A DNA stretch of 64,000 bases from Collybia mongolica (taxonomy: Eukaryota > Basidiomycota > Agaricomycetes > Agaricales > Clitocybaceae): NCBI GenBank assembly GCA_013420905.1, contig JAAXNY010000005.1, forward strand, positions 1 through 64,000, read 5' to 3'. Of this stretch, positions 1-25,983 are shown one piece after another. Each line of letters opens with the position of its first letter. Within the stretch, counting starts at the first letter, position 1. Below the pieces are notes generated by a model, which was not told the DNA's origin, ran no database searches, and worked only from the letters and a program-made list of their open reading frames with translations. The position numbers and the translations under genes are program-made.

Positions 1-117
1 CCCTAACCCTAACCCTAACCCTAACCCTAACCCTAACCCTAACCCTAACCCTAACCCTAACCCTAACCCTAACCCTAACCCTAACCCTAACCCTAACCCT
101 AACCCTAACCTAACCTA
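1..117. repeat. Terminal telomere tract, (CCCTAA)n
   Basis: About 18 perfect CCCTAA units run from the first base and then degrade into CCTAACCTAAAC. The C-rich strand reads away from the chromosome end, so this is the left end of a chromosome with TTAGGG telomeres. The tract passes directly into coding sequence of the minus-strand gene with no spacer. Confidence 0.98.
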
Positions 118-1430
118 AACCAAAAGAAATCCGCCTCTGCTTTCGTCACAATTGTCCGGCGATAAACGGTTGGGTCTTCTTCGTCTTTCTCCCAAACATA
201 AACCGTGGATGTCTTACTCGGCCCGCTCTTGGTGGCATAAGCTTCCCGGGACTCGCGACTCTGCTTCTCTGTAGGAGTCTCCACCTGAATCCGATGTTGT
301 TGGGCTTTCTCTTTCCGTGCTTTGAAAGTTTCCCAGTCCTCTCCGGGCTTCTGACCAGACAGTGGATTGACGATCATCCTTCGATCAACAGGTGGAGGAG
401 GAAGCTCCTCGTCATCCCATCGAGCGTTCCCACGCATAAGGTCAGATGGATCGTCGGGCAAGGTGATTGGGGCACCGGAACTAGGGATGGATGATATGGT
501 GCCTTCGAACTTATATGTTCTTCTAGTGGGAAGCACGATAGAGTCGTACTGAGCTACTCGTCGTTGCGCAATCTCAATGTAATCATCAGGTGGGTAGAAT
601 TCTACAAGCATATGAGCGTCCTGAGCCTGAATGTCCTTAACACCATGTCCCCATATGAACCATATCGGTACGCTGGCGCGGCAGAAATAAACCAGGTACG
701 GACCCCATCTGGTTGCGTACGGATCAAGGAATGCGCCGGGTCGCAAACCCGGCGACAGATCACCAACGACGGACTCCTGGAGGAGATGGAGCCACGATCG
801 AGATATGGGATCCAGGGCGCGGGTGGCGAGTCTAACAAACGCGTTTTGAAAGCAATTATCCTCGAATTCTCCCAACCATAGAGACAGCGCGAATGTAGTG
901 CAGGCGGACATGACTCTAAATGCCCATATCGCTCGTCTGGCGCATACAATGGTTAACTCCTGTGTTTGATGAACATCGCGATAGCCTTGCTGCATAGGCC
1001 AAAGGGGCCAGGAGATCTTCGGGAACAAGTGGGCTTTTGGATGTTTTGCCATCAGGTAGAAGATAACGTCATGTAACGAGTCCTCCAGAGCAATCCATCG
1101 ATTCATGAAACCTTGTTCCAGCACAAAGGACGAGTGTGTGCCAGGGACATGAATGGCGGCCTTCTTAAGCTCGGAAGGCGTGACAGCCAAAACCGAAAAT
1201 ATTGGCCCGTGGTGAATGGCCTTTTTCGGGTAATACGCCATGTATATCTCAGAATCTGAGAGAAAACACGTCGCGTTTGGGTCACCTTTAGGTTGGCGTG
1301 GGGAAGGCGATGAAGTGTGGATGGGGAGGGTACGACTATATGGCGAGACTACGAGCCCTGATTGATTATGCCACATGAGGTGGCGGTGGACTTCTGGCAG
1401 TCGGCGTCGCTCGAAGCTCCGATCGTTCAT
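105..1430 (-). pseudogene. Conserved fungal protein of unknown function, 3' end replaced by the telomere
   Basis: This is an open frame of about 441 codons from the ATG at 1430; a longer reading needs a non-ATG start at 1460. The product is Trp- and Pro-rich. Its C-terminal third is charged, with the segments GQKPGEDWETFKARK and YVWEKDEEDPTVYRR. I recognise the style of a large uncharacterised Agaricomycete family from memory only, and no function can be assigned. The last codons (WFRLG and the stop) are written by the degenerate telomere repeat, with the TAG at 107-105. The natural 3' end is therefore gone and telomere was added inside the gene. Block A1 lies just upstream (1572-2385) and may have supplied the 5' region. 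Whether the truncated gene is expressed cannot be told. Confidence 0.7.
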
Positions 1431-1571
1431 ATTGTAACGTATCGTCGATCTACTGTACAAATGGGCCGCAATATAGACTAAATACGTGCTGAGTGTAATG
1501 AAGCCGATTGCTACGGATTGCCTGACAGGCGCGACGAAGTACAGCTAAGCAAGAGGCAATGGAAAACTGAT

Positions 1572-3309: not shown

Positions 3310-6300
3310 CTACATAGACTCACGCTGTTTTTCCTTACGCTTCGTCAACTTTCCGAAGGGGTTCTTGGATTTCGTAGTCGCGGGAGGAGGGCTCAATGGT
3401 TGGTTGTCTACAAGGCGGCGGCCAAATTGGCTAGGACGGCGCATCGCCGGAACATCTAAACGTCCGTAGTCAAATGAATGCACCGTTTTCTCGAAGAGGG
3501 TCTTACTGGAAGTAGAACTAACACGCCTGTCCTCAGAAAATACATCGACAGACTGTTGGGATTCTCGTGATGGTTTGGATGGTCCCACATCAAATCGGGG
3601 GCCTGTAGAATGAACAAGATGCTATTCAGTTAACAAGACACGGCACATATCACGGACGAGACACACCCGACGATGGCGGTACTGAGTTCGAAGACGAACT
3701 TGCAAGAGATGGGGCTTCATCCGAGCGTCCAGCCGAAGTCATGCTGCGTATCCATCCAGCGGGCCTTACCCATTTTTTCATGCGCATAGCTGCTGGTTGG
3801 ACCATCTGGCGTTCCGGCGGGACGTGCGCTTCACGGTATTTCCCAGTGAAGCCTTCGTGCTGGTTAGAGGCGCTCGACATCTCTTCATCGTCTTCTCCTA
3901 CTGTGCGCTTCGTGATGCGCAGACGCTTCTTTTCCTTGCGAACCTCAGGGCTATCTGTCGTGGGGTTGAGTAAACAGCAATTTAAGTTGGGATATTTGAA
4001 CTCACCGGGTTGAACGCTGCGTCCCCGTCGAGTTCCTTTTGGGTTTGGGTTATAGTTATGAGGCTCTGTTGTGGGCGGGACCGAGAAATCGGAGTTCATC
4101 AAGAAACCAAGGTCAGGAGACGATGCTACAGGTATGTTCCGAGATCAATAGGATGCGAAAAATGAAACGATTACAGTTTACATTGTAGTAACTCCGTGCG
4201 CGGCTCAGGAGTCTCACAATTTATGTGCTCGGGTCTGGGAACATTGCCGCCCACATCGGCAGGAGCGCCATATACGGGGGAAGTACTCTGAGGGAGATGA
4301 CCGTCGTCGTTGGGAGCAAGAGACATAGCGTCACTGGCTTCGCCAAGATCGTTGCCATCGCTGATGCCTTCTTCGTCAGTAGTTGGAGCCACGGCGTCAC
4401 CATCACTGATACCAAGGTCGTCTCCGTCGCTAGTACCAAGGGCCTCACCCTCACTGGTGCCGAGAGCTTCGCCATCGCTGGTACCACACAGATCGTCTCC
4501 AATACTTGCAGTGCCGTCGTCAGCAGCGAGCGCCGTCCCGGACTTCGATCCGTCAATGTCCATGGGGTCTCCTTCCGGTCGCTCGTCGACATCCATCGCA
4601 TGACTGTTCTGGGCCTTTGGTCCATCATTCACCTTTTTATCAAGGACCATATCGTCTTCCTCAGCCCCCACTGTCTCTTTGACGAATTTTGCAGTGGCCT
4701 TCTTAGCCGCCCTCTCTTCTGCCTTTTGAGCCTTCTCCGCCCCCTTCTCCGCCTTTCGAGCCTTCTCCGCCTCTTTCTCTGCAATGCGTCCTCCCTTTTC
4801 CGCCTTCCGCTCCATTTTTTGCCTTTCCTTTGCCTCTTTATCCGCCGCCTTTCTTTGCTCCTTCTCCTCCTGCTTCTTTGACCTTTCGAGCTTCTTCCGT
4901 TCTCTCTCCGCTTCCTTCCGTGCAGCTGTTTCGGCTTTCTTTTGATGCCGCTTCGTGTCTAGAGCCTCGGGGTCATCGTCGTCGACATCATCCTGGGGAT
5001 CCGCTAAGGATTTCCCCGAGAACAGGTCATACATCTCTGAACAACTTGTCAAAATCTGTCAAGAGGAGTCAAGTGATACGACACACCTTCGCCCTTTTTC
5101 TTATCGAGAAACGCGTCCATCAAGTATTTTTTCCCGCGCGCTAGAGAAGACAAGACGATGTCCGCTGTATCAGCCGCGAGGAGGGTGTAGGTAACCACGG
5201 TCTTCTTTTGGGGTTGTCGGAGCGCTCTGCCGAGAATCTGGTGTTCTTCCTGAGCGCTCCAGGGCTGGTCCTATGAAGGAGATTAACACGTCGAAACATC
5301 GAATACCAGCTGCAGGACTCACAAGAAAAATAATCACTGTGGCAACAGTGAGATTCAAGCCCGTAGAACCAACCGCCGATATGATCAAGACGCGATACGT
5401 AGGGTCTTCACAAAATTTCTTCACAATCCTCGCGCGCTGATTAAATGCCGTTTGCCCATCAATATACAGGAATCTGATCCCATACAGGGATAAGATCTAG
5501 GCGCAATCAGCACTGGAAAAAGGACGACCGTTACGAGACGCTCACATTTCTAAGGAGCGGGCCAAGGCTGGGGTACTCCTGATAGATTAGAATCCTGCGT
5601 AAGAAAGTCGCAACTTCGCCGGTTGGAAGAGGTGGAAGAGTCGGGAAGCGCATCTGACCATTTTCAACAAGGGGTCGAGGCGCATCGTCGCGAGACAGGA
5701 GGTACTGGCAGAGCCGGGCGCAAGTATCAATTTTTGTGGATTTTACCTTCTCCCATGCTGCGAGACTCCCAAATCTGGGAGGAGGCACTGAGATATCCAA
5801 GCGCGCAAAGCCCATAGCCATGCGGTGTTCAATATAAAAACTCCTTGAAACTATTGTTAAAAGGCCGTTGGAAGATGAAACACTGTGAACCATCTGTCAA
5901 TACAGTGTACAACGGAAATTTTCTCAACAACATCACCTCTCCTTCACTTTGTCCGCGAGTTCGGAGATGACCTCCATTTCGCGCGCCGTCAGATTTAGAA
6001 TCACCAGATTTTCTTCGTGAGGTGGGAGTGGTACAAGACACTGTTTCTTCCAATCAAGGCTCTCTTTGGTACGCCTAAGAATGCGCCCTTGGAATTGGCG
6101 TTGCATGCGCTGCGCAATGTCCACCACAGCAGAATCGATTTCTACCGGCCCATCGACAGAGTCGTCTCCCCTTGAGCGTCGTATGACCGTTGCGTCCGAC
6201 TTCTCTTCAGCTAGAGCATCTTCGCTGAAGAAATGGGGTATTCCGACCAATCTCCCCATGCTGGCGACGTCCTAAGTGGTCGTCGTTAGTATGTGGTACA

Positions 6301-10241: not shown

Positions 10242-12907
10242 ATGCCCATGCATCACGGCAATTATCCCCTTCAATATACGTCTCTCCGCCGCTTCTGCCA
10301 GACATCGAAAGAACTTCTCGGAACCAACCATCGAGACTTCGTGAAGTTCACCCTTGAAGGTGTGCATGAGAATAGGCAACACGTCGTTGATCTCTCACTT
10401 AATGTGATGGAATTTGACGAACCTTTTGATGCAATGAGAGACTTTGACTCTCTCCTAGGGCTTTCAGATCGAATTATGGTGCATGATGCTATCACCGTGT
10501 TTCCGGTTGCAAAGCAGGAGAAGACGTTATCGACCGATATACACCTTGTATATGAATTTGAGAGTAGTAAAGTGAGTGTTTTACATGTAGTAGTTTGGCG
10601 TGCTAACCGTAATTCTCAGGGATTGTTCCGTGCTCCCGTGCATAAAATCCCCAATGCATGCTTGGCAACTTGGAACACACACAATGTAATATATGTACTC
10701 CTTCCCGAGCTTTACGCAAAAGATCGAAGCTCGTACCTAACGCAAGAGGAATACCGAATTCTCTATGAGGATGGGTTACGCCCTGCAATTGAGAATTTGT
10801 CACCGGAGACAGTGGCGGAATGGCCTGCGAAGTATGCGGATGAAATGTTTAGGGCTCGCAGGCGCAACGGACAGTTAGCGTTCACGAGTAAGATGCTCGC
10901 CCAGTGGCATGTTCGTTACCTGGGGGATCATATCCGTGCTGCGCTCACACATAAGGGAAGCACCTGGGCTACGGGACTGATATTTCTACACCAAATCCGT
11001 GGTGTAAAGCATTCGACACTCCACCGCACCGAAATAGCAGCCGCCGAGGAGGCTTTCGAACATTTCCTTCAACAAAACCGCCTCTCCTACAACTCGATTA
11101 GCAGGCATGGCACCTGGTATGTGGACGTCGGTGTCGAGCTGGGCTCACCGCGGGGTAATTGCCTAGCCTGGCGAACCGATTCGCACTGTGACATGGTACA
11201 GGAGTCGTGTGAGGTGACCGAGCGAGAAGCAAGAAGTATCACGCGTTTAGGAAGTTCAAAGTATGCGCGAGACATAGTGTCCCATCTTCCTGCTGTCTCG
11301 GGATGCCGGATCACCACTGGGAGGGCGCATGGCCCTCATGACATTCCTTACCTACAGCTATACACTACCGACAAGGCGCTCACCTATCACCCGGATCGAA
11401 GAAGTTTCGGAAAATCCATAACCGCTGAGGAACTCCTTAAGGACAAGGGTACAACGTATATTGAAAGCCTCTGTACTTTGTACAACAACGCCATCAGAAC
11501 GAGCGAGGGCCATGCCCGAATCGAACTCAGGGTGTCGATTTTTTCTGCAACAAAGGTGCTCGTTAAACTCGATGAACGTTTACTACGAACATGCCTCGTC
11601 TCAATTGACCGGTCTATTTGGTGGTAAGTACTGTAATTGGGTGATAATATAATCTATTACTTATTCTTAATAGGACACTTCGCAGCTGCAGAGCCTTAGC
11701 GCTCAAATTTCTTGTTGAGTGGCAGATGCAAGGTGTCCCAGCATTTCGAGCGAACCCGTCCGCCCTAGTTCTCACAGCGGCAGCCGCGTGGCTACTAAAT
11801 AGCCTACACTCTGCGCCCGATAAGGGACAGTCATCGCGGGAACTAATGGCCGCGGTATTACCGCACGTTGACCGTGTTGGCGCAGATCACAACATCCTTG
11901 CATACGGTACACCATTAGATGACGAAGACTACGAATCGGAAGCCTCCACGGACTCAGGCTCGGACAACGATCGTGTACCGCGTGAAAGATCCCGACGCGA
12001 TGCAACCACGTTACCAGCCTTTCCTTACGGGATCATCTTCCTTTCAAATCTTCGCATTGGAGAAGAGTACCCTGTTCCGCGTTTGACGAAAGACCCACGC
12101 CATGCGCTGAGCGATCGCGCATTTCGCTATTTCTTCAACTCCACCCCTGAGGAACTGTCGGAAATGCTCCTTCAGGCTGGGGTAGTTCTGCGCAAGCACC
12201 CCAATCGAGTGGCGAACCGGACGCGGATAACCCCATCGTACTATAATTGGGGTCAGAACCCAGATCGAAACATATTCGACCTGGCGGGAAAAGGCGCGAG
12301 CCTTCCAGTTCGCCCTCGAGACTTGGGCTCGGACAACGAGCAGGAGGAAAGCGCGGGAACTAGCCATGATTCGGATGGCGATGATAACACCAACATCGAC
12401 AAATTCATCACTAAATTGTGGTACCAATTCCTTATCGACATCATGGAAGTCGGCCCAAACAAGAGAAGGGCTCACATGCCTGCATATATAAAGCTCAACC
12501 AGCTTGAACGCAAGATGGTTAACGAGGAGACGTACCGCAATAGGAATCTAGAAGAACTTTTCACTGAGTTTCAATGGCGACTGGCGGACGACAAAGCGTG
12601 GAAGGTGAATTTCGACAAGCTCTTCCCCGTGAAGGGCCATACTCGAGCGGGAGCGATCCAGAACTACCGGAGAGCAAAGTATTACCCCAGATGGGAGGAC
12701 TTTAAGGCGAGGGCGAACCATCAATCTTACACCATGGTCCGCAAGGAGCTTTGGAAACGCTTTCGTAAACTCTACTGGATGCCCAAGGCCGAAGAAGACC
12801 GGATCTGGTGGACGAAATACGATTCTCAGATGCAGCACTCCAAGGGCGACCATGTCAATACACCCGCCCCGCGCATTCTAGTTTACAGCCCCTGGCCTGC
12901 ACTGTAG
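10242..12907 (+). CDS. Large conserved fungal protein of unknown function, 871 aa
   Basis: Two exons, 10242-11623 and 11674-12907, flank a 50-nt GTAAGT...TAATAG intron that keeps the frame. The frame is intact from an ATG behind a good TATA box to TAG. The N-terminal half is ordinary globular-looking sequence with segments such as GTWYVDVGVELGSPRGNC, GSSKYARDIVSHLPAVSGC and LQLYTTDKALTYHP. The C-terminal half has two acidic low-complexity stretches (about residues 525-545 and 660-690) and a basic, Trp/Tyr-rich end. I recall similar uncharacterised Agaricomycete proteins but no function. I see no signal peptide, membrane segment or catalytic motif. It is flanked on both sides by repeat blocks and is the only gene between the two oppositely oriented SNF2 units. 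Confidence 0.85.
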
Positions 12908-20377: not shown

Positions 20378-20898
20378 GAGGTTCGACGAACCTCACACAC
20401 CAGAATTGTTATCAAGAAATTGCATTTGGTGGGCTCTGATTGATGGTCAATAGTAGTAATAAAATAGAGCGAGCCGAGGCTTACAATGCCAAACTTCTTA
20501 GACTCTTCATTTTTATCCTCATCAGCCTATTGAGGCATTTGGGAACATGGACTCAAGGATGTGAGGTTCGTCGAACCTCATGTGCTAGTATGTTTGTTCA
20601 AGAGAGTAGGCATGATAGACTCAGAAGTAAATGTGAGGTTCGACGAACCTCACACACCAGAATTGTTGTTGTTATCAAGAAAATTCATTTGGTGGGCTCT
20701 GATTGATGGTCAATAGTAGTGATAAAATAGAGCGAGCTGAGGCTTGCAATGCCAAACCTCTTAGACTCTTCACTTTTATCCTCATCAGCCTATTGTGGCA
20801 TTAGGGAACATGGACTCAAGGATGCGAGGTTCGTCGAACCTCATGTGCTAGTATGTTTATTCAAGAAAGTAGACATGATAGACTCAGAAGTACAATGG
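20378..20898. repeat. Two tandem ~257-bp units, each with two palindromes
   Basis: 20378-20634 and 20635-20898 are nearly the same sequence. Each begins with the palindrome in its A-centred form and carries a second, T-centred palindrome about 185 bp later. The unit is AT-rich and has no credible reading frame. Confidence 0.85.
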
Positions 20899-20944
20899 TA
20901 GTAGTAGTAAATTTGAATGAACTGTACCTATGATGGAAAGGAAT

Positions 20945-21235
20945 TCCATCTGTCTCTCAATCCTACTCCCAATCCCTGCTCATCTCTGCTCATCCCTGCT
21001 CCCAATCCCTGCCCATCCCTACTCCCAATCCCTGCCCATCCCTGCTCATCCCTGCTCCCAATCCCTGCCCATCCCTGCCCATCCCTGCTCCCAATCCCTG
21101 CCCATCCCTGCTCATCCCTGCTCCCAATCCCTGCTCATCCCTGCTCATCCCTGCTCCCAATCCCCGCCCATCCCTGCTCATCCCTGCTCCCAATCCCTGC
21201 CCATCCCTACTCCCAATCCCTGCTCATCCCTGTAA
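20945..21235. repeat. Minisatellite of ATCCCTGCTC / ATCCCTGCTCCCA units
   Basis: Alternating 10- and 13-base units with small substitutions fill this stretch. The open frames across it on both strands are a by-product of the repeat. It abuts the first unit of the ribozyme/telomere-repeat array. Confidence 0.92.
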
Positions 21236-21279
21236 TTTAAATCCCTGTTCAATCCCTGTCCAATAAAAAATAGCCCCAT

Positions 21280-21815
21280 AACCTAACCCGCCTGAGCCGG
21301 ACCGGACTTTGATCCGATCACCGGCCCGACATGGACGGTTAAAGGCCACGTACCCGGTCCGAAATGACCGCGACGTGCGAAAGGTTGCTAATCATTACCG
21401 CTAAACCGGAGTAATCCGGAAGGCGTTGTTCCCACAGATTGTCAAGGTCGTTAATAGACGGTCGCCGATTGGTGCCCAACACACTGCCTTCGGGCAGAGT
21501 TAGTAAGCCCGCTTCGGCGATGTCGTGTTCTATTCCGATCTGCCAGACGCTATGGAAGCGACTGCGCATCTGTCATGCGTGCAAATGGCCATTGGCCGCC
21601 TCTGACAGGTAGATGACTAAGTATCCCGACTTTAGCCTAACTTCGGAACAAAGCTAAAGTCCGCAGCAACCCGTATACACCCTAAAACCGATCTGAAGAG
21701 TCTTAAAAGACGAAAGGATCCGACCGGTGGTCTCCTCCATCGATCCTTATCGGTAAATTTCGCCTACTCAACTATATCCTCCAACAAAAACGCTTCGCGT
21801 TTTTGTTGTCGTCCA
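21280..21815 (+). mobile_element. Telomere-attached unit X, copy 1
   Basis: A 536-bp unit nearly identical to 23664-24200. It has no convincing coding frame but is rich in hairpins, for example CTGCCTTCGGGCAG near 21484. A hammerhead ribozyme occupies 21687-21754. A terminal hairpin of at least 10 bp closed by CTTCG is at about 21783-21807, followed by GTCGTCCA and then CCCTAA repeats. Its orientation (5' toward the telomere, 3' joined to telomeric repeat) is what telomere-primed reverse transcription would give. The element family is inferred. Confidence 0.8.
21687..21754 (+). ncRNA. Type I hammerhead ribozyme, unit X copy 1
   Basis: Read directly: stem I ACCGAT (21687-21692) pairs with ATCGGT (21749-21754). 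Core CTGAAGA fits the CUGANGA consensus. Stem II is GTCT/AGAC with loop TAAA, then GAAA. Stem III is AGGATC (21715-21720) with GATCCT (21742-21747), capped by an inner GACC/GGTC hairpin. The predicted cleavage is after U21748. All invariant core positions are present. Confidence 0.87.
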
Positions 21816-21833
21816 CCCTAACCCTAACCCTAA
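21816..21833 (+). repeat. Interstitial telomeric repeat, three CCCTAA units
   Basis: Exactly three perfect units in the same orientation as the chromosome end, at the 3' border of unit X copy 1. Confidence 0.95.
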
Positions 21834-23078
21834 ATTTCAGAACTACCGGAACGCTATAGACTCGCTTCGTGCGCTCTATATACAGCGTGGCTATCCAGTG
21901 AAATTAGTATTGCAGTGGACTTCGGTCAATATGGCAGAACGATGGCAGAAACGTCTATCAGAGTCTAAGGGTTCTGGAGAGCTAGACAGTGTTCTGGTGC
22001 TTAAGTCTGAATTCAATACTGCTTGGAATTACTTCTCTGCTCGAGAATTGGGTAACACAATCACGGATTTCTGGTCGTTATGGCTAAACCATAACCAGGC
22101 AGCTACGGAGGGGAATCGCTTACCCCCCATAGAGTTCCCACAATTATCTGGATCTTTGGGCAAGTTGGCCGATGGAGTCCCGGAGGCGTACACCGTGCGT
22201 CTTCAGGTCACTAACGGTACGACGACCTCAATACCAGATATACGGAAACTAGATATCCTAAAGCGCCGATGGATTGTCAGCCGCAAACGCACTCTCAATC
22301 TCTTCGACCTCGTAAATCTTTGGAAAAAGATTGTTATCGAACACTTAGACAAGGATGCAGCACGAAAGGCTGTACCCAATGAGCCCGTGGGTAACCCCCA
22401 GAATACGGTAGTAAGAACTATAAACCCCACTCCTAACATTGTGAACAGGGAACGGATCGAAACCATTCACACGCGCGAGCGTGCGGACTCAGAGTTGGAC
22501 CCCTTCGTCCTTGCTTGGAACCAAGGTTTTAGGCTCGGAGTGAACGCGGACCCTACTGGAGTAACTCTCTAATCTGCGCCTTTGGTATCCCCAGAGGTGA
22601 TGGCCTAGGAAACCGGTCGCAATGCAGCTCCTGTTGCACTTTATGGTCTGTGCTCAGCGAAAAGTGAAATAACTTTTGATGATCTTGTGGGCTAAGGCCC
22701 CACACCTGTCGCGGCTTACCCCGCGCAGTTGATCTCCTTTACGGAACGATTACCTCTTGATCTTTGGTATAAGTCTATCTATCTGAGGCGTAGCATGCTG
22801 GTGGATTCCGGCTGGTTACGAAAAGTAATAGCGCCCAAGTTGATTGAGGTTGGGGACTGGGTTCCCCCTGTAAAATTGAACCTCGCTTAAAGATCTATTT
22901 CGTCTTAAGGGACGTCGCCTAGTAGCAACTCCCCGCTTGAATCACTCTAAGTGTCAATTCTCGTAAGAACTCCTTGAAAAACTGTCTATTCTCCCAGTTT
23001 TTCCACTCACTACATACGTTTACCAGAAGCTCTGTTTAAAATCTGGGACATGTCGGTTTTAGATGGCCGTTGGAACAT
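21834..23078 (+). mobile_element. Telomere-attached unit Y, carrying an open reading frame
   Basis: The unit lies between telomeric repeats at 21816-21833 and 23079-23090 in the same orientation as the other units. It has one open frame (21931-22572) followed by about 500 bp of sequence broken by stops. I found no hammerhead core in it. It is the only unit in the array with credible coding capacity and is single copy in the window. Confidence 0.65.
21931..22572 (+). CDS. Unrecognised protein, 213 aa, encoded in array unit Y
   Basis: The frame from the ATG at 21931 reads MAERWQKRLSESKGSGELDS and ends at TAA; a GTG start at 21898 would add 11 residues. It is predicted soluble, with segments such as LFDLVNLWKKIVIEHLD and a hydrophilic linker before the C-terminus. 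I see no reverse-transcriptase, nuclease or zinc-finger motif. A TATATA lies near 21877. It could be a structural or accessory protein of the element, or a 5'-truncated fragment. The 500 bp downstream do not extend the frame. Confidence 0.5.
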   Translation: MAERWQKRLSESKGSGELDSVLVLKSEFNTAWNYFSARELGNTITDFWSLWLNHNQAATEGNRLPPIEFPQLSGSLGKLADGVPEAYTVRLQVTNGTTTSIPDIRKLDILKRRWIVSRKRTLNLFDLVNLWKKIVIEHLDKDAARKAVPNEPVGNPQNTVVRTINPTPNIVNRERIETIHTRERADSELDPFVLAWNQGFRLGVNADPTGVTL

Positions 23079-23168
23079 CCTAACCCTAACGTACGTAGCT
23101 TCGACTTAACCGTCGAAACGACCAGCTAACGGTCTTTTATTTTAACGAATAATAGCCTAACCCTAACC
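23079..23168 (+). mobile_element. Miniature unit W between two telomeric repeats
   Basis: CCTAACCCTAAC (23079-23090) and CCTAACCCTAACC (23156-23168) bracket a 65-bp segment. The segment contains the hairpin TTCGAC-TTAACC-GTCGAA (near 23099-23116). It looks like a severely 5'-truncated element copy whose full-length source is not in the window. Confidence 0.6.
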
Positions 23169-23640
23169 GCTAACCTTTAACCTTAAAGGCTAAGTAGCCG
23201 GGCCGATGGGGCCCGGCGCCTAAGTATAGCGCGGCTAAAAGAAGATAAGATCCAGGCACGAGATCCATCTTCTTTATTGATCCGCGTCGGTGAATAGCTA
23301 ACCGAAATTGATCCGCGTATCGGATAAATACTAAGGTAGGGCGGGCCAACATGGACCGCGTTCCATGCGCGTCGAGCGCGCATGCCAGCGCACACCCCCT
23401 CACATGGCGCAACATGTGTCTGAGGGGTTTACGCTGTGGTCGCTCGGAAAAACCGCGCGCGCGCCGTAACGGTGCGGCGGCGCGAGCGGAGAAACTGATT
23501 AAACATTAACAAACAGGCCTGATGAGTACTTATACGAAACAGGTCGGGTGGGGGATTCCCCCAACCCTGTTGCTTGTTTGTAACGCAACTCATCGTACCA
23601 AAGTCACTCGCAACCTCGCTTCGCTCGGTTGCTCGTTCCT
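23169..23640 (+). mobile_element. Telomere-attached unit Z, copy 1
   Basis: A GC-rich 472-bp unit with inverted segments but no convincing gene. It ends with a hammerhead ribozyme (23510-23580), then about 60 nt including a GCAACC/GGTTGC hairpin, then GCTCGTTCCT and CCCTAACCCTAACC (23641-23654). Its last 311 bp (from 23330) recur as unit Z copy 2. Confidence 0.8.
23510..23580 (+). ncRNA. Type I hammerhead ribozyme, unit Z copy 1
   Basis: Stem I CAAACAGGC (23510-23518) pairs over nine positions, with one G-U, with GCTTGTTTG (23572-23580). Core CTGATGA is followed by stem II GTA/TAC with loop CTTA, then GAAA. A long stem III starts ACAGG and returns as CCTGT, around an inner GGGTGGGGG/CCCCC hairpin. 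The predicted cleavage is after U23571. All invariant positions are present. Confidence 0.88.
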
Positions 23641-23654
23641 CCCTAACCCTAACC
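23641..23654 (+). repeat. Interstitial telomeric repeat
   Basis: CCCTAACCCTAACC joins the 3' end of unit Z copy 1 to the 5' flank of unit X copy 2. Confidence 0.93.
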
Positions 23655-24200
23655 GGTTAACCCAACCTAACCCGCCTGAGCCGGACCGGACTTTGATCCG
23701 ATCACCGGCCCGACATGGACGGTTAAAGGCCACGTGCCCGGTCCGAAACGACCGTGACGTGCGAAAGGTTGCTAATCATTACAGCTGACCGGAGTAATCC
23801 GTTTGGCTTTGTTCCCACAGGTTGTCAAGGTCGTTAATAGACGGTCGCCGATTGGTGCCCAACACACTACCTTCGGGCAGAGTTAGTAAGCCCGCTTCGG
23901 CGATGTCGTGCTCTATTCCGATCTGCCAGACGCTATGGAAGCGACTGCGCATCTGTCATGCGCGCAAATGGCCATTGGCCGCCTCTGACAGGTAGATGAC
24001 TAAGTATCCCGACTTTCGCCTAACTTCGGAATAAAGTGAAAGTCCGCAGCAACACGTATACCGAAAAAACCCGATCTGAAGAGTCTTAAAAGACGAAAGG
24101 ATCCGACCGGTGGAATCCAACCATCGATCCTTATCGGGACCCCTTCCGCCTACTCAACTAGTCCTCCAACCCAAACGCTTCGCGTTTGTGTTGTCGTCCT
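23655..24200 (+). mobile_element. Telomere-attached unit X, copy 2
   Basis: Nearly identical to 21280-21815, with a few extra bases (GGTTAACCC) at the 5' side. Differences cluster in loops and in compensating stem positions. It ends in the same conserved hairpin and GTCGTCC, then CCCTAACCCTAACC (24201-24214). Confidence 0.85.
24070..24138 (+). ncRNA. Type I hammerhead ribozyme, unit X copy 2
   Basis: Stem I is CCCGAT (24070-24075) with ATCGGG (24133-24138). The core CTGAAGA, stem II and GAAA are as in copy 1. Stem III is AGGATC/GATCCT, with cleavage after U24132. Compared with copy 1 the outer stem I pair changed from A-U to C-G, so both partners changed together. Confidence 0.88.
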
Positions 24201-24214
24201 CCCTAACCCTAACC

Positions 24215-24242
24215 TTTTGTTGTCGTCCACCCTAACCCTAAA
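24215..24242 (+). mobile_element. 15-bp truncated copy of unit X plus telomeric repeat
   Basis: TTTTGTTGTCGTCCA (24215-24229) equals the last 15 bases of unit X copy 1. It lies between CCCTAACCCTAACC on the left and CCCTAACCCTAAA on the right, which is an extreme 5' truncation preserving the 3' end and its junction. Confidence 0.8.
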
Positions 24243-24243
24243 C

Positions 24244-24562
24244 ACTAAGGTAGGGCGGGCCAACATGGACCGCGTTCCATGCGCGTCGACCGCGCATGCC
24301 AGCGCACACCCCCTCACATGGCGCAACATGTGTCTGAGGGGTTTACGCTGTGGTCGCTCGGAAAAACCGCGCGCGCGCCGTAACGGTGCGGCGGCGCAAG
24401 CGGAGAAACTGATTAAACATTAACAAACAGGCCTGATGAGTACTTATACGAAACAGGTCGGGTGGGGGATTCCCCCAACCCTGTTGCTTGTTTGTAACGC
24501 AACTCATCGTACCAAAGTCACTCGCAACCTCGCTTCGCTCGGTTGCTCGTTCCTCCCTAACC
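24244..24562 (+). mobile_element. Telomere-attached unit Z, copy 2 (5'-truncated)
   Basis: 24244-24554 matches 23330-23640 almost base for base but lacks the first 161 bp of copy 1. It is followed by CCCTAACC (24555-24562), after which unrelated sequence begins. Same 3' end, different 5' end: the usual sign of reverse transcription from a fixed 3' end. Confidence 0.85.
24424..24494 (+). ncRNA. Type I hammerhead ribozyme, unit Z copy 2
   Basis: Same sequence and fold as the 23510-23580 ribozyme: stem I CAAACAGGC/GCTTGTTTG, core CTGATGA, GAAA. The predicted cleavage is after U24485. Confidence 0.87.
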
Positions 24563-25033: not shown

Positions 25034-25102
25034 AATTAAGATCACTTTGAGGTTGTGTTTGAGTGTGAGAGTGATGGTGGATGGGTGATGTGTCTGATCT
25101 GT

Positions 25103-25600
25103 AAGTGAGGTGCACAACTTTTGGATACAGTCATACAACTGGCAGCAACAACACTGGGAGAGACAGTTCTGAGAGCAATATAAGTTTGAACCATGGTTAA
25201 AACATACTTCAGAGGACTATAAGTGAGGTGCACAAGTTTTGGATGGAGTCATACAACTGCCAACAACTGCAACTGGATTCAACAACACTGGGAGAGACAG
25301 TTGTGAGGTGCACAACTTTTGGATGGAGTCATATGACTGCCAATGACAATACTGGGCATACATTCTGTTGTTAGTATGAGGCATGAGAGCAATGTAAGTT
25401 TGAATCATGGTAGAAATACACTTCAGAGGACTACAAGGTCAGGTTTGGTGGGAGTTGTACAACTGCCAACAACTGTGACTGGAACATACATGAGAGCAAT
25501 GTAAGTTTGAATCATGGTAGAAACACACTTCAGAGGACTATCAAAGAGTCGTATGACTGCCAATAACTGCAACTGGAACATACCCATGTTCTTGACAAGT
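25103..25600. repeat. Degenerate direct repeats of ~80-130 bp
   Basis: Units start at about 25105, 25221, 25303, 25435 and 25542. They share AGGTGCACAACTTTTGGAT, GAGTCATACAACTGCCAACA and ATCATGGTAGAAACACACTT segments in varying combinations. No coding frame is supported. Confidence 0.75.
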
Positions 25601-25983
25601 AGATTATTACCGGAGTCATGCTATATAAAACAGACAAGTATTCCTTCTCGAAACAAAACCAGTCTTTATCGCTTGTCATAAATGCAATTATATTTAAACA
25701 TGTGTGTAAACAAAAAAAAAAATAGACTGTGATTTCGTACTTTGTATTGTGTGGTGCGCCGGGAATGATTCATATGTGTAGAGAATGATAATGTGCAGAC
25801 GAGAAACAGAAAATGGGAAGAGACGAGCATGTCACGGCGAGCCATATACAGACGGTGTGGTATCGAACGACGAAAAGATGGTTTCGCGCAAAGCAAAGAG
25901 ACAAACGACGATGACGACGACAGCAAAGAACCAGAATAGAAAAAATAAATCCGTAATGCAAGAGACGAGAGACGAGCGATGGC

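Follow-up and report, generated by a model that had tools for sequence, protein, structure and literature searches.

The window analysed here is a stretch of 64,000 nucleotides from the basidiomycete Collybia mongolica (assembly GCA_013420905.1, contig JAAXNY010000005.1, positions 1 to 64,000), and we focused on an array of Penelope-like element (PLE) copies at 21280..24562. The features of the array given below, and a terminal telomere tract, (CCCTAA)18, that forms the left contig end (1..108), are on the forward strand. X1 (21280..21815) is an X-family PLE copy that consists only of the terminal repeat (pLTR), and its 5' end falls inside a telomere-like seed (position 4049 of the reference XB). 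It contains a type I hammerhead motif (21687..21754, cleavage predicted after 21748) and a 3'-terminal hairpin of 12 bp (21782..21808) adjoining the telomeric tail, which is made up of three CCCTAA repeats (21816..21833). The C-terminal part of a Z-family reverse transcriptase (RT) open reading frame (ORF) lies at 21835..22572. X2 (23642..24200, XB 4027-4582) is a diverged X-subfamily copy, again a pLTR only, with a type I hammerhead motif at 24070..24138 (cleavage predicted after 24132) in which one stem I pair is changed on both sides in comparison to X1. A further hammerhead motif, at 23509..23581, has its cut predicted after 23571. A 15-bp remnant of an X 3' end (24215..24229) is followed by CCCTAACCCTAA, and the innermost unit meets the chromosomal DNA at CCCTAACC (24555..24562). 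Directly distal to X1 is a minisatellite-like unit, S2 (20933..21281), with the fixed right end AATAGCCCCATAA. Very probably, the array was once the tip of a chromosome, to which copies of two PLE lineages, X and Z, were added successively. The array of the original prediction was real in part; its division into seven separate units was rejected.

The original prediction had suggested looking for a full-length copy with an RT, and we found such copies, full-length and RT-coding, at other places in the genome (contigs are denoted C1, C3, etc.). The full element is about 5 kb long and has a single ORF. It is arranged as pLTR, CCCTAACC, RT ORF, telomere-like seed, pLTR and CCCTAA; CCCTAACC separates the 5' repeat from the ORF, and each repeat is immediately preceded by a CCTAACCCTAACC-like seed. 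At C1:21465-26530, one open frame of 1241 aa lies between two identical Z repeats (the 5' repeat is shortened), while at C3:79-5242 a frame of 1166 aa is flanked by two X repeats; a further X copy (C26:40217-35065) has a frame of 1163 aa. The 1166-aa frame was seen in three X copies and the 1241-aa frame in three Z copies. Counted from a common MSS start, the ORFs measure 1133 aa (X) and 1182 aa (Z). The RT region matched 26 places in the genome, 25 of them stop-free across the matched stretch, and one copy on C4 was broken into two pieces.

X and Z had earlier been proposed as possible undescribed non-autonomous elements, and solo X and Z copies could be independent ribozyme elements, similar to retrozymes, that PLEs mobilize in trans. 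We consider this unlikely. Retrozymes contain no RT, whereas X and Z flank RT ORFs: this genome also contains full-length elements in which they form the terminal repeats, with identical junctions, and internal initiation on the full-length RNA would account for the solo copies without a separate element. What stands of the earlier claim is that the pLTR-only copies form an over-abundant class of product. We also rejected the idea that X and Z derive from a viroid-like agent or a satellite, since they flank the RT ORF.

We observed that the 3' ends of X and Z were joined to telomeric repeats at chromosome ends and in a single orientation. This agreed with what the array had led one to expect genome-wide, the flank checks covering part of the genome's X and Z matches. 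There was one interstitial exception, and two short contigs were unanchored. The shared 3' ends and differing 5' ends seen in the array were also borne out, as we counted 69 distinct 5' junctions with the 3' ends fixed at CCCTAA. By a strict test, 24 of the 69 distinct 5' junctions were capped by telomeric repeats; others started within a telomere-like seed or abutted an S unit (described below). Full-copy bodies, duplicate junctions, the inverted fragment at C1:20669 and the C8 copy were set aside for the counts, as were the telomere-bearing right ends of C17, C18 and C24 in the reading of junctions.

Arrays of this kind might also spread chiefly by recombination or break-induced replication between subtelomeres. 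Junctions common to C3/C4, C1/C22 and C5/C16, together with shared subtelomeric flanks, fit such a process, but recombination alone does not give so many different 5' junctions with invariant 3' ends. The RT frames are also open, and the copies of the Y region are 97-100% identical, so that we regard recombination as a very unlikely main route. Another explanation is that interstitial CCCTAA marks broken ends healed by telomerase, and that X and Z are unrelated subtelomeric repeats. A telomerase gene is indeed present in the genome, and four more subtelomeric units with fixed right ends (S1-S4) join these arrays. However, healing would not lead one to expect the same 3' end ahead of every CCCTAA, nor these units on both sides of an RT ORF; this explanation is already largely refuted and we find it hardly credible. 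The anatomy and orientation of the elements, their fixed 3' and variable 5' ends, the open RT frames and the telomerase gene can all be read directly from the assembled sequence.

Solo X pLTRs numbered 27 rather than 29, because two of them (C21 at reference position 4112 and C26 at 4001) are 5' pLTRs of longer elements and were removed. The Z repeat at C1:96026-96432 was counted as solo; three telomeric repeats separate it from a copy starting at reference position 22, and it could be a rearranged full copy. Eight X and three Z copies run past the fetched stretch, with their 5' ends beyond the data. Even when all of these were taken as starts of element bodies, the excess of solo pLTRs was about 15-fold in both families.

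The pLTR carries a type I hammerhead core with three helices, of which helix III has 5-6 bp. We searched the window with a descriptor for this type and found exactly four motifs, the number of complete motifs originally predicted, in comparison to none in 60 simulated windows. An Rfam search over the array, and with one X and one Z hammerhead alone, gave no significant hammerhead match. Among the copies long enough to be aligned (45 X and 35 Z, giving 24 and 15 distinct sequences), the core was unchanged in all 15 Z sequences and, with position 7 treated as free, was kept in 23 of the 24 X sequences. Position 7 was changed in the X sequence of the C3 and C4 copies, while the old interstitial C8 copy had lost the G of GAAA to another base. 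One X stem I pair was altered on both sides, from A-U to C-G, in 8/24 sequences, and two pairs of the X 3' hairpin were altered on both sides in 10/24 and 1/24. Several observations count against the structures: three X and two Z hammerhead pairs that are each broken in a single sequence, two broken pairs in the X hairpin (10/24 and 1/24), and one Z sequence without one side of the hairpin. The minimum-energy fold of X1 and X2 was the hammerhead, not clearly above shuffles (z -0.87 and -1.61), and that of Z was a different fold (z -3.63). The hairpins adjoining the tail folded well (z -6.04 and -2.58). A scan of IMG/VR for relatives with which to compare the ribozymes gave nine stretches that fitted a pattern, and none was confirmed. 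By their sequence, the hammerheads are predicted to cleave.

If so, cleavage in the pLTR might set the ends of the template RNA, the unit being circularized and then copied. Retrozymes are described as using a cleavage and circularization route (PMC7761336, PMC6155905), and the conservation of the cores, with the C8 copy as the exception, is in line with this. The junctions argue otherwise. Only 2 of 49 5' ends located in the pLTR lay no more than 2 nt from the predicted cut, both of them in Z and one read by eye from a gapped alignment, and all eight full copies with a visible 5' end began upstream of it. The lizard PLE PAc inserted in vitro without the need for cleavage (PMC11167929). 5' ends defined by the cut site were rejected, and the junctions speak against ribozyme cleavage as what defines the copied 5' end; a route through circularized units is quite unlikely.

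In the predicted structure of the RT (model residues 425-961), the best match was to TERT, followed by group II intron RTs, and a Y-x-D-D motif occurs at residue 820 (X) and 899 (Z). The modelled fold thus suggests a telomerase-like RT. Pfam matched no family in the X RT, the Z RT or the Y fragment of the window, and a PDB sequence search with the RT gave no telomerase match. A PDB profile search gave weak matches only (TBP, E 0.01; a Mediator subunit, 0.03; the Drt3a RT, E 0.033). In a tree of 38 proteins, Z joined P0012 (support 100/99) apart from X, and therefore X and Z are separate lineages. Two species were named among the 120 listed of 383 RT homologs, Armillaria ostoyae and Lentinula edodes. 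Of 97 homologs of a kinase gene in the window, eight bore a species name and all eight came from Agaricomycetes, which makes a host of this class very likely. In canonical PLEs the endonuclease is located C-terminal of the RT. No GIY-YIG motif was found in X, Z or the 120 listed homologs, and PF01541 was in none of those 120 listings. With hmmscan, no endonuclease was detected in X and Z; a diverged C-terminal nuclease may have escaped it, since hmmscan missed the RT of X and Z too. The C-terminal 170 or so residues of both proteins, downstream of the RT, were partly conserved and had no fold assigned.

We infer priming at the chromosome overhang. The sense RNA of the element would carry CCCUAA beside the 3' hairpin and hammerhead, and this CCCUAA would pair with the 3' overhang of TTAGGG repeats. 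The telomerase-like RT would then elongate the overhang, reading the RNA template in the direction of its 5' end, with no endonuclease required, and incomplete copying would yield 5'-truncated copies. The new end could be extended by telomerase or by the next element RNA. The pLTR-only copies, such as X1 and X2, most likely arise either when the RT initiates at the CCCUAACC that separates the 5' pLTR from the ORF, or from short transcripts of the pLTR. A more tentative possibility is that they are a separate RT-dependent class, made from short RNAs bearing the ribozyme or by RT starts at the telomeric seed, that tiles chromosome ends independently of the full element and that forms, with S1-S4, an end-attaching community served by one telomerase-like RT beside telomerase. 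That the family is a fungal, telomere-attaching, Penelope-like one with hammerhead motifs and without a recognisable endonuclease, as originally proposed, was supported.

The units S1-S4 are subtelomeric, with a fixed centromere-side end and a variable extent, and occur in C1, C3, C4, C7, C11, C16, C18 and C21-C26; S2-S4 were observed within the fetched stretches only. For S1, S3 and S4, the junctions with PLEs (at many different positions) or with other DNA fall mostly at AG/AGG; those of S2 fall at CC(CTAA). S1 had nine exact matches genome-wide, of which seven were anchored, all telomere-oriented, and a diverged copy lies in the window at 25099-25609. The S units may likewise attach to chromosome ends, or may have arisen by microhomology capture. 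C22 (50,691 bases) repeats the arrangement of the C1 left end (C1:26,500-39,900) at a constant offset and in the same orientation, possibly as the second haplotype or through duplication of the end. Outside the array, an inverted repeat, GAGGTTCGTCGAACCTCA (20557-20657), matched mir-2188 below the cut-off (E 0.0033; 30.4 bits against 60). Open frames in the subtelomere, about 390-460 aa long and with no Pfam match, lie at 105-1460 (reverse strand), 10242-11627 and 11726-12907 (both forward).

Coprina and related fungal PLEs, which lack the endonuclease and are associated with telomeres, were reportedly described by Gladyshev and Arkhipova in 2007, and a 2014 paper on PLE hammerheads is said to cover fungi too. 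MoTeR of rice blast is a LINE-type element. It is likewise a fungal retroelement at telomeres (named in PMC10088271). Endonuclease-deficient PLEs are described from telomeres in rotifers, fungi, protists and plants, with priming by exposed chromosome ends and capping by telomeric repeats proposed for them (PMC3846280); Coprina is the name for the fungal members (PMC6515669). Coprina-type PLEs and the elements described here have in common the lack of a detected endonuclease, a TERT-like RT, attachment to the ends of chromosomes, truncated 5' ends that bear telomeric repeats, and a basidiomycete host. Features that may set the present elements apart, in a comparison by description rather than by sequence grouping, are the telomere-like seeds on both sides of the pLTR and the over-abundant solo pLTRs seen here. 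Athena/Terminon elements of bdelloid rotifers share the embedded telomeric repeats, head-to-tail arrays and 5' truncation by telomeric repeats (PMC6431247, PMC12477314, PMC10088271), and in Terminons a hammerhead lies directly upstream of reverse-complement telomeric repeats, with overhang pairing proposed (PMC6431247). However, Terminons can be as large as 40 kb and contain accessory ORFs, and the endonuclease-less PLEs described in these papers have two ORFs, neither of which we found in the single-ORF elements here. Canonical Penelope/Poseidon elements (e.g. PAc, PMC11167929) share the hammerhead-bearing pLTRs and a single ORF with a PLE-type RT, but have a GIY-YIG endonuclease. PLE hammerheads (PMC6155905, PMC7761336) are likewise of type I and located in repeats; they are minimal motifs mostly without helix III, in contrast to the helix III seen here. 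PLEs are found at chromosome ends of Agaricus bisporus (PMC7473861). Five Rfam matches (Hammerhead_3) are given for another basidiomycete, Pleurotus ostreatus, with no PLE or telomere link in the available part of PMC5040776.

Given the described telomeric endonuclease-deficient PLEs, the Terminon hammerheads, and the fungal PLEs and hammerheads, X and Z belong to an already known kind. Our literature comparison found no base-resolution report of hammerhead-bearing fungal telomeric PLEs or of a solo-pLTR excess; the primary papers of 2007, 2014 and 2017 were outside it, so we do not claim that these are unreported. The X and Z arrays of this genome display the known kind unusually clearly: the two families provide dozens of distinct additions to chromosome ends, many of them little diverged, and their RT frames are open and their ribozyme cores conserved in a genome that also has a telomerase gene. 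The in vivo role of PLE hammerheads has been called a mystery (PMC7761336), and with the junctions described here, the models of overhang priming and of internal initiation can be put to a direct test.
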